Below are positions 10,831-50,178 of a stretch of 50,178 bases of DNA, piece by piece. Under the pieces are notes generated by a model. It saw only the letters and a program-made list of their open reading frames with translations, did not search any database and was not told the origin of the DNA. The stretch lies in assembly GCA_020073665.1 (NCBI GenBank), contig JAIQEU010000021.1, positions 1 to 50,178 of the forward strand, read 5' to 3'. Position 1 is the first letter of the stretch. Each line of letters begins with the position of its first letter. This DNA comes from Terriglobia bacterium. Lineage in GTDB: Bacteria; Acidobacteriota; Terriglobia; Terriglobales; Acidobacteriaceae. A program made the position numbers and the translations under genes.

Positions 10831-10892
10831 GGTGGCAGGGAGCAGATCGCAGGAAGCAGGTGGCAGGTTGCAGGTGGCAGGTTGGAAATGCT
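10831..10892. repeat. Degenerate tandem 'GCAGGTGGCAGGTT' repeat
   Basis: Short direct units GCAGG(T/A)(G/A)GCAGGTTGCAGG run through the gap between the divergent secreted-protein gene and the small + strand gene. Related text occurs on the other strand at 10976-11000 (CTCCCTGCAACCTGCCGCC) and near 1270-1290, so this is another family of dispersed intergenic repeat. Confidence 0.5.
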
Positions 10893-11016
10893 TCAGGACA
10901 ACCGGCCACCCTTCGTTTCATGGTTGCGGATGCAAAACGCGAGGGATCGCCGCGATCTGCGAGCCGAGTCCTGCTCCCTGCAACCTGCCGCCTGCTCCTG
11001 GCGGTAGAATCTCCTC

Positions 11017-13507: not shown

Positions 13508-13553
13508 GAAGCTTCTAGCTTCCAGCTGTGAGCTCTCAGCTTTCAGCTCTCAC
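13508..13553. repeat. Dispersed repeat, 'AGCTTTCAGCTCTCAGC' class
   Basis: A run of AGCTTCTAGCTTCCAGCTG / AGCTCTCAGCTTTCAGCTC units directly after the PP2C stop codon. The same text occurs inside imuA (47015-47043) and, inverted, just before imuB (47243-47268). Confidence 0.6.
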
Positions 13554-39701: not shown

Positions 39702-40220
39702 ATGAGCGAAGTTGTGCCCTGGCTGGATCGGAGATTCAACTTTGATTTTCCCGCGAGTCTGTATCCCAACATCCTCGCAAGAGTACGGGGCACCCCGCCG
39801 CGCATGGAGGATGCGGTTCACGGGCTTTCGCGCGAGCAACTGGTCGTAAAGCACGGCGGAAGATGGTCGATTCAGGAGAATGCGGGGCACCTGCTTGATG
39901 AAGAGGACCTCTTCTGGCGCCGCTTGAAGGAATACCACGCTGGAGTGGAGACGCTGACTCCTGCTCCCTACCAGGATATCGAGCTTAAACACAACGACGG
40001 GCAGATCGAAACGATCCTTCGTGATTTCCGTGCAGCCCGCGAACGTCAAGTTCAGCTGCTGACAGGGTTCCGGCCTGACGACTTTGCGCGTACAGCCTGG
40101 CATGCCAGGCTGAAAGTATCCATGCGATTGGTAGACCATCTGCTCTTCATGGCTGAGCATGACGATCATCATTTAGCACGTATCTGGGAGTTGGCGGGTG
40201 GCCCGCCCGTGGCGGGCTAA
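39702..40220 (+). CDS. DinB-family protein (copy 2)
   Basis: 172 residues from ATG 39702, preceded by a textbook AGGAGGT. The DinB-like four-helix pattern is visible in RMEDAVHGLSREQLVVKHG, WSIQENAGHLLDEEDLFW with the first His, and the C-terminal LVDHLLFMAEHDDHHLARI with clustered metal His residues. Thiol- or metal-dependent transferase chemistry is known for relatives, but the substrate here is unknown. The last seven codons and the stop are part of the 86-nt repeat at 40201-40286. It follows copy 3 of the sulfatase-fold gene by 43 bases and may be co-transcribed with it. Confidence 0.88.
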   Translation: MSEVVPWLDRRFNFDFPASLYPNILARVRGTPPRMEDAVHGLSREQLVVKHGGRWSIQENAGHLLDEEDLFWRRLKEYHAGVETLTPAPYQDIELKHNDGQIETILRDFRAARERQVQLLTGFRPDDFARTAWHARLKVSMRLVDHLLFMAEHDDHHLARIWELAGGPPVAG

Positions 40221-40286
40221 TTGTAAGCCGGGAGAAGATTGTGGGTGCCCCGTTCCGTACAGGTGAGTTACAGTGACTGCGCAGAA
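40201..40286. repeat. 86-nt dispersed direct repeat, copy A
   Basis: Begins GCCCGCCCGTGGCGGGC and ends TTACAGTGACTGCGCAGAA. It matches 41366-41451 over its full 86-nt length in the same orientation, roughly 80 percent identical by eye. Its 5' part overlaps the end of the DinB gene (copy 2) and can form a GGCGGG/CCCGCC hairpin with the preceding bases. Confidence 0.75.
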
Positions 40287-40314
40287 GCGGCCCACCCGCA
40301 AGCCCAACTCACAA

Positions 40315-41316: not shown

Positions 41317-41365
41317 GGGGATGTTATAGCAAAGGGGTGGGTAAGTTTTCATCAGTGCGCGGCTG

Positions 41366-41451
41366 GCCCGCCCGTGGCGTGCCGATTGTCAGCAAGAAAG
41401 ATTGGGATTGCCCCCGGTTCCGCCCAGATGACTTACAATGACTGCGCAGAA
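41366..41451. repeat. 86-nt dispersed direct repeat, copy B
   Basis: The partner of 40201-40286, starting GCCCGCCCGTGGCG and ending TTACAATGACTGCGCAGAA. It lies in the gap between the terpene-cyclase-fold gene and the 93-residue gene. The 3' half (GTTCCGCCCAGATGACTTACAA) is well conserved between copies. Confidence 0.75.
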
Positions 41452-41510
41452 ATGCGCAACCGGCCTGTGACGCACTCCAATCACCTTGTCCAGTGAGAAA
41501 ACGGACCCTA

Positions 41511-46317: not shown

Positions 46318-47178
46318 ATGTCTTCCCTGTGTGCCCAGACGCTGGGCCATGGCGTTGCATTTGTTTCCACGCCCGCGTCTGTGCTTTTAAAGCGCCTCGC
46401 GGAAGCAGCCAAGCTTGCCAGCGTGACGCCGGCAGCGCAGATGGCAGTGCGGCCGGTGCCGGAAATGGTTCCCAGCGGGATCGCCGAACTCGACACCCTT
46501 ACTGGCGGACTGCCGCGCGGTTGCCTCTCCGAAATTTGCGGGGCAGCTTCTTCGGGACGCACCAGTGTTTTGCTGGCAGCGTTGGCTTCCGCTACCCAAC
46601 GGCAGGAAGTGTGCGCCCTGGTAGATACCAGCGATGCTTTCGATCCGGTGTCGGCTGCGGCGGCAGGAGTGGATTTCGAAAAACTGCTTTGGGTACGGTG
46701 CGGGGCAAAGGCAAATTCACCACAGAGACATAGTGACACGGAGAAAACAAAACATCATGAACGCAAGAAAGAAGATCCTCTGGCGCAAGCGTTGCGGGTC
46801 ACCGATCTGCTGTTGCAAAGCGGCGGCTTTGGGATGGTGGCCGTCGATCTGGGCGATGTTCCGTTGAGGGCGGCGCGACGGATTCCGCTGACCTCGTGGT
46901 TTCGCTTTCAACGTGCGGTGGAGAACACGCCCACGGTATTGCTGGTGGTGGCAGAAAGTCCCTTTGCGCCGGCCTGTGCGGCTCTGCTGGTGAAACTGCA
47001 GTCTGGAAAACAGCGGTCAGCTTTCAGCTCTCAGCTTTCAGCCACGAACAAAACCTTGCCGGCTCACGCGCTGCTGTTTGATGGATTGCATGTGGAAGGG
47101 GAAATTCTTCGTTCACGGATGGAGCGTAAACCGGTGCGAGCTGCAACCACTCGATTTGCCACCCGCGCTGTGGGTTGA
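46318..47178 (+). CDS. imuA: ImuA-like RecA-fold protein (mutasome)
   Basis: 286 residues from ATG 46318; a TTG at 46288 is possible. It is the RecA-like partner of ImuB in damage-tolerance mutagenesis. The RecA-fold core begins SGIAELDTLTGGLPRGCLSE, with a P-loop GAASSGRTS where the usual Lys is Arg. LVDTSDAFDPVSAAAAGVDF is the Walker B neighbourhood seen in relatives. Two stretches look out of place in the fold: NSPQRHSDTEKTKHHERKKE and SGKQRSAFSSQLSATN. Both are encoded by dispersed repeats (46718-46746 and 47015-47043) that elsewhere lie between genes, and both keep the frame. Whether the protein tolerates them is unknown. It is followed by imuB, 95 bases later. Confidence 0.82.
   Translation: MSSLCAQTLGHGVAFVSTPASVLLKRLAEAAKLASVTPAAQMAVRPVPEMVPSGIAELDTLTGGLPRGCLSEICGAASSGRTSVLLAALASATQRQEVCALVDTSDAFDPVSAAAAGVDFEKLLWVRCGAKANSPQRHSDTEKTKHHERKKEDPLAQALRVTDLLLQSGGFGMVAVDLGDVPLRAARRIPLTSWFRFQRAVENTPTVLLVVAESPFAPACAALLVKLQSGKQRSAFSSQLSATNKTLPAHALLFDGLHVEGEILRSRMERKPVRAATTRFATRAVG
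46718..46746. repeat. 'CACAGAG..GACACGGAG' repeat inside imuA coding region
   Basis: CACCACAGAGACATAGTGACACGGAGAA is a diverged copy of the 2240/3380/9044 intergenic motif, here in frame within imuA, where it encodes part of a charged insertion. Confidence 0.6.
47015..47043. repeat. 'TCAGCTTTCAGCTCTCAGC' repeat inside imuA coding region
   Basis: Matches the 13508-13553 repeat class. It encodes the Ser/Gln-rich SAFSSQLSAT stretch of imuA. Confidence 0.6.
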
Positions 47179-47204
47179 GAGTTCGTGCTTCAGATACTGC
47201 GGGC

Positions 47205-47268
47205 AGCCCTCCCGACAGCCGGCGAGACGCCGGCGCTACGCACTGATAGCTGAAAGCTGACAGCTTTT
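47205..47268. repeat. Composite dispersed repeat between imuA and imuB
   Basis: GCCCTCCCGACAGCCGGCGA leads into GACGCCGGCGCTACGC, an inverted GCCGGCG/CGCCGGC unit. It is followed by CTGATAGCTGAAAGCTGACA GCT, an inverted copy of the 47015 repeat. A T-run follows (47264-47270), so the unit could also form a weak terminator within the operon. Confidence 0.6.
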
Positions 47269-47273
47269 TTCTC

Positions 47274-48737
47274 ATGACTGCTTTTGCTTGCATCTTCGTT
47301 CCCGATTTTCCCGTAGAGGCGCTGCTGCGGTCAGAGCCGGAGTTGCGTTCGCAGGCGGTTGCAGTGCTCGAGGGTAAAGCGCCTTTACAGAAAGTTCTTG
47401 CCGCAAACGAAAAAGCCCGCCGGGCCGGAATCGAGCCGGGGATGTCCCGGTTGCAGGTTGAAGCTTGCACCGACCTGGCGCTGCGTGCCCGCTCGCTGCT
47501 GCAAGAGGATGCCGCTCACGCCGCGCTGCTGGATTGTGCGCAGTCTTTTTCGCCGCGGGTGGAAGACGCAGGCTGCGACACCATCCTGCTTGATCTCGCT
47601 GGCCTGGAGCCGCTTTTTGGTTCATTGCCAAGGATCGCGCGGGAGATCGCGCGCCGGGCCTGGGACCTGGGCCTGGAAGCAAATGTGGCGGTGGCGTTTA
47701 ATCCTGATACCGCCGTGCTCGCGGCGCGCGGGTTTTCCGGGGTGACCGTCATTCCATCCGGGCGGGAAGCCGAGCAACTGGGCAGCCTGCCATTGCCCGT
47801 GCTGTGGGCTGGCAGTTCGATGGAAGCAGCAGGCTTGCTCGAAACCTTCGACCGCTGGGGCGTGCGCAACCTGCGCGCTCTGGCCGCCCTGCCGGAGGTT
47901 GCGCTCAGCGAGCGCCTGGGGCAGGAGGGTGTGCATCTGCAGCAACTGGCGCGCGGCGCTACGTCTCGCACGCTGGTTCCGGTCGAGCCGCCCCTTGGGT
48001 TTGAAGAGGCGATTGAACTGGAGTACCCGCTGGTGCTGCTGGAACCGTTGGCATTCTTGCTGGGCCGGTTGCTGGAGCAACTTTGCGCTCGCTTGGCGGC
48101 GCGCGCACTGGCGACGCAGGAGCTGCGGTTGCGGTTGGAATTGGAGAACGGGTATCGCGAAGAACTGGACACGCGCGCGGCCGAGGACGAGCGTCCCAAC
48201 AGCCGCTGGTTTCAGCGCACGCTGCGGCTGCCGGTCCCGCTGCTCGATGCCAAAGTCTTTCTCAAGCTGCTGCAGCTCGATCTGAAAGCGCATCCGCCGG
48301 GCGCGCCAATCGTTAAAATTCAGCTGGCGGCGGAGCCGGTGCGGCCACGCGCGGCCCAGAGCGGGCTCTTCCTTCCACCTTCGCCAGAACCGGAAAAACT
48401 CGAGCTCACGCTGGCCAGGATTGCTGGCATCGTCGGTGAAGGCAAGCTGGGTTCGCTGGAGTTACTGGATACGCACCGTCCCGAGGGTTTTCGCATGCAG
48501 CACTTCGCGCCGGATGCAACTCATGGGCTAAAGCCCTCTTTAAAAAATGCATTCAATGCAGGGCTGAAACCCTGCGCCACCCAGAAACAATCTGCCGTAA
48601 ACCCGCCGGGACTGAAGCTCCACGGACTTACGTCCGTGGGATCCAACTTTCGCAGGCTTTGGAGCGCCTGTCCCCGAAGCGAGGATTCGCTATTCCTCCA
48701 CGGAGTCATGTCCGAGGAATCCCGCGAAGGGGATTGA
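47274..48737 (+). CDS. imuB: ImuB-like catalytically inactive Y-family polymerase, run into a repeat
   Basis: 487 residues. The Y-polymerase-like region begins FACIFVPDFPVEALLRSEPE, where the catalytic DxD of true Y polymerases is absent, as in ImuB. Further family segments are LAANEKARRAGIEPGMSRLQ, SPRVEDAGCDTILLDLAGLE, LFGSLPRIAREIARR, GVRNLRALAALPEVALSERL, VEPPLGFEEAIELEYPL and ELLDTHRPEGFRMQHFAP. After that point (about residue 415) the frame runs through a dispersed hairpin repeat for ~70 codons (HGLKPSLKNAFNAGLKPCA and onward) before a chance stop. So the natural C terminus, which binds the clamp and DnaE2 in the family, appears lost or replaced. ATG 47274 has no clear Shine-Dalgarno. 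Confidence 0.82.
   Translation: MTAFACIFVPDFPVEALLRSEPELRSQAVAVLEGKAPLQKVLAANEKARRAGIEPGMSRLQVEACTDLALRARSLLQEDAAHAALLDCAQSFSPRVEDAGCDTILLDLAGLEPLFGSLPRIAREIARRAWDLGLEANVAVAFNPDTAVLAARGFSGVTVIPSGREAEQLGSLPLPVLWAGSSMEAAGLLETFDRWGVRNLRALAALPEVALSERLGQEGVHLQQLARGATSRTLVPVEPPLGFEEAIELEYPLVLLEPLAFLLGRLLEQLCARLAARALATQELRLRLELENGYREELDTRAAEDERPNSRWFQRTLRLPVPLLDAKVFLKLLQLDLKAHPPGAPIVKIQLAAEPVRPRAAQSGLFLPPSPEPEKLELTLARIAGIVGEGKLGSLELLDTHRPEGFRMQHFAPDATHGLKPSLKNAFNAGLKPCATQKQSAVNPPGLKLHGLTSVGSNFRRLWSACPRSEDSLFLHGVMSEESREGD
48525..48650. repeat. Multi-hairpin dispersed repeat at the imuB 3' end
   Basis: Contains GGGCTAAAGCCC (48528), CAGGGCTGAAACCCTG (48559) and CCACGGACTTACGTCCGTGG (48621), three short stem-loops in about 110 bases. 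Strings of this kind (gggctGAAgccct, ccacggACTTACgtccgtgg) are frequent intergenic elements in Koribacter-like genomes as I remember them. Here the element forms the open 3' end of imuB. Confidence 0.7.
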
Positions 48738-48806
48738 TTTAATAAAGTACAATAATCATGCCAACCCCCGGGCGGACCCGTCCGTCTAAGGAGATGAAAG
48801 GCGGAG

Positions 48807-49421
48807 ATGGACTTTATGGATGAACAGGCGCTCGTCGACGGACTGTCCAGTGGAGACCAGACGGCCTTCCGCGAGTTCGTCGAGCGGTACAAGAGAAGAA
48901 TCTATTACCTGGCCCTGGACATGGTCGGCAACCCGGTCGACGCCGAAGACGTGTCCCAGGAGGTTTTCCTCAAGGTTTTCCGATCGTTCGGGACGTTCAA
49001 GAAGGACGCCAAGATCAGTTCCTGGCTGTATCGAGTCACCTACAACGCCTGTATCGACCACTTGAGGAAAAAGGAGCTGACTCCGGAGGCCGTCGGCGAC
49101 GAGGCCCTGGAGGCCCGGACGAAAAGCGACGCCCCGTTGTCGGGATCGTCCTCGGTCCAGGACCCCCACCGCTCCCTCGAAACGGGCCAGCTCCAGGCCA
49201 GGATCGCCCGGGCCCTGGAAAACGTCTCGCCCCAGGAGAAAGCCGTCTTCCTCCTCCGCCACTATGATCAGCTCATGCTCAAGGAAATCGCCGAGGTCCT
49301 GCACCTATCCGTCGGGTCGGTCAAGAGCTACCTGTTCCGGGCCGTCCGGAAACTGCAGATAGAGCTCGGCGCTTCGGGCATGGCTCCGGGGATGGAGGTC
49401 TCCCATGATGAATTGCCGTAA
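48807..49421 (+). CDS. ECF-type RNA polymerase sigma factor
   Basis: 204 residues. Region 2 is seen in FREFVERYKRRIYYLALDMV, then GNPVDAEDVSQEVFLKVFRS and SWLYRVTYNACIDHLRK. Region 4 is VSPQEKAVFLLRHYDQLMLK, EIAEVLHLSVGSVKSYLFRA. A GGAG-containing leader precedes the ATG. It overlaps the start of the next gene, a putative anti-sigma factor, so the pair is translationally coupled. Codon use differs from everything upstream (CTC and GTC favoured over CTG and GTG; many CGG), and the gene begins just after the repeat at the end of imuB. It may come from another lineage or from a join in the assembly. The pair reminds me of Aminicenantes-type sequences, from memory only. Confidence 0.9.
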   Translation: MDFMDEQALVDGLSSGDQTAFREFVERYKRRIYYLALDMVGNPVDAEDVSQEVFLKVFRSFGTFKKDAKISSWLYRVTYNACIDHLRKKELTPEAVGDEALEARTKSDAPLSGSSSVQDPHRSLETGQLQARIARALENVSPQEKAVFLLRHYDQLMLKEIAEVLHLSVGSVKSYLFRAVRKLQIELGASGMAPGMEVSHDELP

Positions 49422-50178
49422 ATGCAAAGATCTGATGATCGAGGCGCTCTACGGGGAACTCCGGCCCGCCGAAAGAAACCTCTTCGACACGCATCTCGGT
49501 TCCTGCCCGGACTGCGCCTCCGAGTATTCCATCATGGGCGCCACGCTCCGGGTCATGGACAAAAAACAGACGCCCGACCCGGGTCCCGAATTCTGGGACG
49601 GCTATTGGGCGAGGCTCGCGGCGCGGATGGACGCGGAGGGCGGGGCCGGCCCGGCCCGGCTCCCGCTCGCGGCCCGCGCCGTCCGCTTCTTTGCGCTCTT
49701 GCCGCGCTGGTCGTACCGGCTGGCCGCGGCTGCCGCTCTGGTCGCGGTCGGGATCCTGATCGGGCGGTCGCTTCTCTCGCCTCCCCTTACGATTTCCCAA
49801 CTTCAGATGAATCCGGCGACGTCCTCGGCCGTGCCCGTTTCAAATGACCCGGCCGTCAGGGCCCAGCAGTACATTGATCGCTCGCAGATCCTGCTCCTGG
49901 GCCTGGTCAACTTTAACCCCAAGACCGAGGACATCTATGCCCTCGACCTGCCACGGAAGAAGGAGATCTCGCGCGAAATGGTCATCCAGGCCGCGGACAT
50001 CCGGGGCGCGCTGACCGACCCCCGGCAGAAGCGGCTCCGGGAGCTCGTTTCCGACCTGCAGGTCATCATGATGCAGATCGCCAACCTTGGCGCCGGGAAA
50101 GACCTCGACGGGGTGGAAATCGTCAAGGGGGGCATCGAGCAGAAGGGGATCTTCCTCAAAATCGACCTGACCCGGATG
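49405..50178 (+). CDS. Anti-sigma factor with zinc-finger N terminus (3' end missing)
   Basis: The frame is open to the window end (258 codons, no stop). It starts at ATG 49405, 17 bases inside the sigma gene. The N-terminal zinc-finger reads NCRKCKDLMIEALYGELRPA and then HLGSCPDCASEY, the H-x3-C-x2-C motif of ZAS anti-sigma factors. A proline-rich linker and one membrane helix follow (LAAAAALVAVGILIGRSLL). The C-terminal part, with QQYIDRSQILLLGLVNFNP, EDIYALDLPRKKEISREMV and GALTDPRQKRLRELVSDLQV, is a helical extracytoplasmic region. It would hold the sigma factor at the membrane. Codon use is as for the sigma gene. Confidence 0.85.
   Translation, partial: MMNCRKCKDLMIEALYGELRPAERNLFDTHLGSCPDCASEYSIMGATLRVMDKKQTPDPGPEFWDGYWARLAARMDAEGGAGPARLPLAARAVRFFALLPRWSYRLAAAAALVAVGILIGRSLLSPPLTISQLQMNPATSSAVPVSNDPAVRAQQYIDRSQILLLGLVNFNPKTEDIYALDLPRKKEISREMVIQAADIRGALTDPRQKRLRELVSDLQVIMMQIANLGAGKDLDGVEIVKGGIEQKGIFLKIDLTRM

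Follow-up and report, generated by a model that had tools for sequence, protein, structure and literature searches.

Why do short repeats that otherwise lie between genes occur in frame within mutasome genes, and are the genes that carry them intact? The question is raised by imuA and imuB, which lie near one end of a 50,178-nucleotide stretch of DNA from a Terriglobia bacterium (assembly GCA_020073665.1, contig JAIQEU010000021.1; hereafter the window). The window is the entire contig C35 of the assembly (50,178 of 50,178 bases). A sequence-only reading of it had described two repeat classes within imuA, a composite between imuA and imuB and a multi-hairpin element ending an apparently shortened imuB, and had left decay and tolerated insertion as alternatives. 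Our analysis makes it probable that repeats have been inserted recurrently and in frame and are tolerated in exposed linkers and that, separately, contig C35 runs into foreign DNA at 48598.

Repeats in the mutasome genes of this genome

The imuA gene (46318 to 47178, forward strand) is intact and encodes a RecA-like protein of 286 residues (Pfam RecA, 8.7e-15; aligned with 57 relatives); its match to the NCBIfam model ImuA_translesion, at 1.6e-10, is below that model's cut-off. With a Y-family-like ImuB and a DnaE2, the latter encoded on contig C6 after an overlap described below, it forms an imuA-imuB-dnaE2 cassette. Two repeat classes do lie in frame in imuA, as first described. Repeat 1 (46718 to 46752, forward strand) is of the CCACAGAGACATAGTGACACGGAG type and is translated as PQRHSDTEK at about residues 134-145; it belongs to the CCACAGAG..CACGGAG type found also at 2240, 3380 and 9044, and the surrounding segment, 46700-46790, recurs at six further sites of this genome (E<=0.001), which is above chance. 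Repeat 2 (47010 to 47046, forward strand) is a heptamer array of CAGCTTT and CAGCTCT units, found also at 13508, and is translated as SAFSSQLSA at about residues 231-243. All seven of its other listed places in a sample of this genome lie between called genes. The presence of a composite repeat in the imuA-imuB gap (47179 to 47273) was likewise borne out: the gap sequence has dispersed copies and includes, at 47243-47271, the inverted partner of repeat 2 (pair I4; 29 nucleotides, 90% complementary).

Within imuB itself the repeat that can be attributed to this organism is a palindrome resembling repetitive extragenic palindromic (REP) elements, GGGCTAAAGCCC..AGGGCTGAAACCCT..GCGCCACCC, in frame at 48518 to 48591 (forward strand), before the C-terminal domain. 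Invasion of imuB by repeats thus stands for this palindrome and fails for the multi-hairpin element, which is foreign. According to PMC6511836, ImuB has a RecA-NT-like motif followed by ImuB-C; judged from the alignment, the palindrome appears to sit between the two. In this genome it matches the C6 overlap and, weakly, one further place (C42; 77%, E=0.0048), and a match at E<=0.01, often a partial one, was obtained for 30 of 120 genomes, this one included. The DnaE2 of this genome contains an in-frame array, VVRRPSSVVREGVGRSSLVVGP, and another array lies in the imuB-dnaE2 gap.

When the repeat segments were compared with 803 kb of this genome, the numbers of aligned pieces, self-matches included, were 3 for imuA site 1, 11 for imuA site 2, 10 for the imuA-imuB gap, 2 for the imuB element, 17 for the imuB-dnaE2 gap and 14 for DnaE2; the reversed sequence gave 1, 1, 0, 0, 0 and 0 in the same order. 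Among 33 listed places outside the operon, 31 lie between called genes, in a sample that is 83% called coding, and the other two begin no more than 30 bases from the start of a called gene. This list leaves out the imuB element and counts a few places under two families, and the between-gene fractions are rough, as genes were called with a simple script based on codon usage, which missed imuA. Elsewhere in the window, at 10848-11003, CAGGTGG-type heptamer arrays form a 34-nucleotide inverted pair, 88 nucleotides apart and 82% complementary.

The same linkers in relatives

Among the relatives found, those with names are metagenome-assembled genomes of Terriglobia, Acidobacteriaceae and Sulfotelmatobacter. 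After removal of duplicates, 57 ImuA and 58 ImuB sequences of relatives were aligned. In those covering the insert sites, the sites are variable linkers, and the repeat-derived peptides differ from one relative to another. At the DNA level, imuA site 1 is occupied by CACGGAG-type repeats in L042, L077 and L051; other relatives have other repeats there or nothing recognisable. The ImuA of L050 and L052 carries a CACGGAG-type repeat that itself encloses a different palindrome (CCTTCGAC..CCGAAGGG). In imuB, L042 has the REP-like type of the window at the same site, and L041, a closer relative, is without it; L026 has half of the element and L046 another palindrome. The sequence-only reading would have given way to relatives bearing the same peptides with no sign of repeat origin; what they show is other repeats, repeats of the same type or none that is recognisable.

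Heptamer arrays are the most frequent occupants of these linkers. With a strict definition (18/21 matches), the relatives' loci contain 18 arrays in imuA, 10 in imuB, 43 in dnaE2 and 16 in the operon gaps, while the remaining 235 kb beside the operon has 1, and 3 at 16/21 matches. At the latter threshold 36 of 38 ImuA arrays, this genome's included, map to residues 136-148 and 229-238 of our ImuA, the second interval holding arrays from 21 relatives as well as our own. ImuB arrays fall at residues 297-308 in 11 of 17 cases, and those of DnaE2 lie around residues 72, 807-866 and 919-942. The unit differs between lineages: at DnaE2 807 it is GTCGTCC, GTTTCAA, GTACCGA, TTGCCAG, GTTCTCA or AGCTGTC, depending on the lineage.

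To count host genes, an array was called internal if it had 16/21 matches and a centre at least 20 codons from the gene ends. Internal arrays of period 7 were found in 26 of 57 imuA and 9 of 58 imuB genes of relatives and in 27 of 52 dnaE2 genes, partial sequences included (21 of the 29 that are full-length). Each of the other periods from 5 to 10 was seen in 0-2 genes, except period 8 in dnaE2 (12/52). None was found in the control genes ileS (0/30) and dnaE1 (0/30); candidate heptamers inside dnaE1 were rejected, as their positions precede the likely true start. Fisher tests against the combined 0/60 gave p values from 1e-3 (imuB) to 7e-12 (dnaE2), ignoring relatedness. Translation initiation factor IF-2, the infB product, has a variable N-terminal part and was chosen as a control that does not act on DNA. 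Two of 30 infB genes contained an array, and both are doubtful: one falls at residue 13 of the open frame, the other resembles ordinary GC-rich coding sequence.

Two further hosts came from a random sample of 678 genes of this genome, in which the only arrays well inside a gene were those of the DnaG primase and a ribonucleotide reductase. Three other genomes, sampled with 637 genes, had no array in such a position. The array in our DnaG (L141:4563-6491) is in the N-terminal part, and 7 of 30 dnaG genes, ours included, have one at residues 192-222. That of the ribonucleotide reductase (L115:18168-20000) follows the TSCPD domain. Ten of 30 such genes, again with ours, have an array, which in nine lies 57-76 residues short of where the frame ends; one gene has its array at another place and one has a second array. 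Both families, in the Fisher comparison too, were picked for an array in our own copy. A Granulicella tundricola plasmid, which its taxonomy line assigns to the same order, showed no array of period 6-8 in 15 kb.

Purifying selection on the codons outside the arrays is strong: the ratio of nonsynonymous to synonymous substitution (dN/dS) is 0.08-0.29 in 26 gene comparisons from ten genome pairs. For arrays of 29 or more codons, seven comparisons gave 1.0, 0.26, 0.67, 1.03, 0.86, 0.55 and 0.49; values for shorter arrays are scattered from 0.2 to above 1, and alignment within arrays is uncertain. In the AlphaFold2 model of ImuA both inserts fall in low-confidence loops between secondary-structure elements. 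In that of the L042 ImuB (mean predicted local distance difference test score, pLDDT, 74.5) the REP-like peptide belongs to a stretch of low confidence, residues 363-455, that precedes a more confidently modelled beta domain. These linkers are presumably exposed, and the inserts would do nothing for the protein.

Open frames, conserved flanks and the weak constraint on longer arrays argue for recurrent, tolerated insertion, as do the nesting of repeats and the sharing of linkers by several unrelated classes of them. The earlier suggestion that repeats land in the mutasome genes, leave the frame intact and are tolerated in loops is supported, and across many relatives. An adaptive role, in which the arrays act as a frameshift switch (seven not being a multiple of three) or the peptides themselves are functional, would account for the similar CAGCTNT array and peptide (..LSAxSxQLS..) that ImuA site 2 keeps in many lineages. 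We consider such a role quite improbable, given that the arrays are degenerate, that sequence change is faster in the longer ones than elsewhere in the protein and that many relatives are without them; moreover, no frameshift was found at the arrays in the DnaE2 frames examined, the linkers of L059 and L064 being unjudgeable because of runs of N.

The end of imuB and the contig junction

A search of the assembly showed that window positions 48407 to 48597 (forward strand) are an exact copy of the first 191 bases of contig C6 (C6:1-191). On C6 the imuB frame stays open past the overlap (C6:192-502), stops at C6:502 and is followed by dnaE2; across the join the protein reads THGLKPSLKNAFNAGLKPCATQKQSA|EEHSATDASS...WFVEGTYD. 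The genuine part of imuB in the window is thus 47274 to 48597 (forward strand; Pfam IMS, the overlap with C6 and 58 relatives), and with its C6 part it encodes 544 residues, a length similar to that in many relatives. The region after the RecA-NT-like motif, reported as missing by the sequence-only reading, is present on C6 and in relatives, and is lacking in the window only through the way in which the contigs are joined.

The tail of the window, 48598 to 50178, belongs to another class of Acidobacteriota; in 60 relatives it found short matching pieces only, in 14 genomes. The multi-hairpin element (48609 to 48746) matches a dispersed repeat of a foreign lineage, G282, with 90% and 91% identity at its two best places (G282:C12 and C8) and partial matches at further ones, and it has no other place in our genome at E<=0.001. 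The DNA from 48754 to 49440 is 76% identical to G282:C88 and spans a gene for an extracytoplasmic function (ECF) sigma factor of the foreign lineage (48807 to 49421, forward strand). The anti-sigma (zf-HC2) gene that follows (49405 to 50178, forward strand), also assigned to the foreign lineage, is cut by the contig end. A search of 396 genomes with its protein gave some match in 239; among the matches listed, full-length ones of 61%, 55% and 54% are in family f51 of the same phylum, weaker ones are in further families, all of the same phylum, and the best in our organism's own family and class (E=4.5e-9) covers part of the protein. Because the tail matches G282 and f51 and scarcely the organism's own lineage, sequence comparison places the passage into another organism's DNA between 48598 and 48609. 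Given this tail and the overlap with C6, the 47 codons after 48597, up to a stop at 48737, merely extend the imuB frame and are not imuB of this organism; the multi-hairpin element does not form the last 70 or so codons of the gene, as had been proposed.

The join at 48598 is probably a misassembly, the true end of imuB being that on C6, and the apparent loss of the ImuB end most likely reflects a faulty contig end. Among 28 contig ends, one of them unusable because of a run of N, four other contig pairs (C9/C18, C2/C8, C4/C17 and C27/C5) are joined by exact overlaps of 126-196 bases, which fits assembly forks. That some of the population carries a genuine rearrangement or transfer might be argued from the unbroken contig at 48597 and from the hairpin-type repeats flanking the join on both sides, which could recombine. 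The normal continuation of imuB from an exact 191-base overlap, the match of the repeat and two genes of the tail to another class and the similar overlaps at four other pairs make it decidedly unlikely. Contig ends within repeats can therefore mimic gene truncation. Contig C18 extends about 3 kb beyond the start of C9, and its end may also be chimeric. In another part of the window, 40189-40299 and 41354-41464 are two repeated segments 1165 bases apart and 77-83% identical.

With the truncation explained as a contig artefact, decay loses one of its grounds. That the mutasome genes are turning into pseudogenes and accumulating repeats was suggested by the repeats inside them and by the seemingly shortened ImuB; in addition, one listed ImuB match (G107, of another family) carries a stop. 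In this genome imuA, imuB and dnaE2 all have open frames, as do the aligned relatives; among the DnaE2 frames that stop short within a locus, two (L059 and L064) end at runs of N; and the codons outside the arrays are strongly constrained. We regard decay as very improbable indeed.

Spread of the repeats, tolerance and targeting

In 1.58 Mb sampled at random from four genomes, 82 period-7 arrays (16/21 matches) lie between called genes and 9 in them, and 7 of these 9 are within 25 bases of a gene end. At the same threshold, arrays of period 6 (48) and 9 (22) are genic, with 2 and 3, respectively, between genes. Among strict arrays (18/21) between called genes, 19 have period 7, and periods 6, 8 and 10 account for 2, 3 and 1; none of period 5 or 9 was found there. 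Within called genes, period 6 accounts for 7 strict arrays and period 7 for 3.

Segments of the linkers also resemble these dispersed repeats: 92 of 303 match a 1.52 Mb pool drawn from four genomes (280 matching places between called genes, 33 within such genes), compared with 2 of 139 core segments and, with the pool reversed, 6 of 303 linker segments. The proportion varies by site from 3/57 (ImuB palindrome linker) to 18/26 (DnaE2 807). We infer that the repeats arrive by copying from elsewhere. Expansion in place by polymerase slippage is an alternative that we judge unlikely. It would explain the dominance of period 7, the units that differ by lineage at one site and the weak match of arrays to their own genome's pool, and a link between heptamers and polymerase slippage has been proposed, as reported in PMC4692102. 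It accounts poorly for inverted partner arrays nearby, for the matches to dispersed repeats and for repeats at the same sites that are not heptamers (the REP-like element, the CACGGAG type and CCTTCGAC..CCGAAGGG nested in CACGGAG).

According to the explanation that we favour, short interspersed repeats of Terriglobales-type Acidobacteriota, mainly degenerate heptamer arrays, often as inverted pairs, together with CACGGAG-type repeats and REP-like palindromes, would spread round the genome and survive mostly between genes. Within coding sequence they would survive at a few exposed linkers: in ImuA at about 130-150 and 230-245; in ImuB at about 297-308 and before the C-terminal domain; in DnaE2 at about 72, 807-866 and 919-942; and at one site each in DnaG and near the end of ribonucleotide reductase. 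Insertions that keep the frame and bring no stop would persist as flexible peptides, which would drift under weak constraint and be replaced over time by other repeats.

Several observations weigh against this explanation. The ImuB palindrome linker matches the pool in only its 3 of 57 segments, and the arrays of our mutasome match their own pool weakly (35 per Mb, compared with 8-27 elsewhere), as do those of three other genomes (G045, 30 against 15-22; G001, 22 against 0-7; G049, 8 against 8-16). Some arrays look constrained, such as that of imuA in the L023-L059 comparison (0.26). The ImuA model is poor (mean pLDDT 60.6, with 102 of 286 residues below 50), and its loops say little. The gene caller missed imuA, so that counts between genes may include some genes. 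IF-2 has almost no arrays despite its variable N-terminus. Finally, arrays occur in 12 of 56 imuA-imuB gaps and 21 of 52 imuB-dnaE2 gaps, compared with 33 of 507 co-directional gaps of up to 200 nucleotides in four genomes (p=6e-4 and 2e-10, ignoring relatedness). This excess weighs against tolerance alone, which predicts none in non-coding gaps.

Gap type contributes to the excess. Throughout the four-genome sample, array density is high in short gaps of the co-directional (1.0 per kb) and convergent (1.3 per kb) kinds and low in divergent gaps of 201-600 nucleotides (0.03 per kb), as if arrays were kept out of promoters; the two operon gaps hold 2.9 and 4.8 per kb. An initial estimate of more than 10-fold enrichment of the operon over intergenic DNA was reduced by gap-type matching to about 3-5 fold per kb. 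The operon-gap excess, the near absence of arrays in IF-2 and the role in DNA metabolism of all the hosts found speak for more than tolerance, on a small number of hosts from a search of part of four genomes. They could mean that fixed sites in DNA-metabolism genes (imuA, imuB, dnaE2, dnaG and a ribonucleotide reductase) are recurrently entered by repeats, through replication- or repair-coupled copying to which these loci are exposed and which possibly involves the mutasome itself. We offer this tentatively, as a rather unlikely explanation.

Tolerated insertion has parallels in known systems. Rickettsia palindromic elements (Ogata et al. 2000 and 2002, as cited in PMC10969869), of about 150 bp and ten families, lie in frame in many metabolic genes. 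Ours are likewise interspersed repeats in frame in unrelated protein genes, seemingly tolerated, but they are mostly heptamer arrays of about 28-160 nucleotides and many unit types, in a few fixed linkers of repair and replication proteins of another phylum; the imuB element is palindromic but only about 75 nucleotides long. The heptameric repeats of Xanthomonas (GGGAATC) and Nostoc (GGGGATT) described in PMC4692102 are also tandem, dispersed and mainly between genes, as are our period-7 arrays, but are G-rich and of one main type, whereas each genome here has several types that are not G-rich, that often form inverted pairs and that recur within conserved genes. REP palindromes (PMC3733652) are short, dispersed and mostly between genes; the imuB copy differs in being coding, and is likened to them by form and not by a GTAG/CGTC tag or a REP-associated tyrosine transposase (RAYT). 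Entry at fixed sites through targeting would recall inteins (PMC5874633), but the inserts are short low-complexity peptides of roughly 10-55 residues in variable linkers, and Pfam scans of ImuA, the window part of ImuB, DnaE2, DnaG and a 611-residue part of the ribonucleotide reductase found no intein splicing domain at E<=0.001.

In the open-licence PMC literature we found nothing relevant on heptamers in Acidobacteria or Terriglobales and, among the papers listed for ImuA, ImuB or DnaE2 with repeats, none on repeat insertion by title or start of abstract. The occupancy by heptamers of fixed sites in mutasome, primase and ribonucleotide reductase linkers across a family seems to be new. It indicates that, across a bacterial family, short interspersed repeats can shape linkers in conserved enzymes of DNA repair and replication, and it supplies dozens of natural experiments in which insertions share the same sites, with which the choice between tolerance and targeting can be posed.

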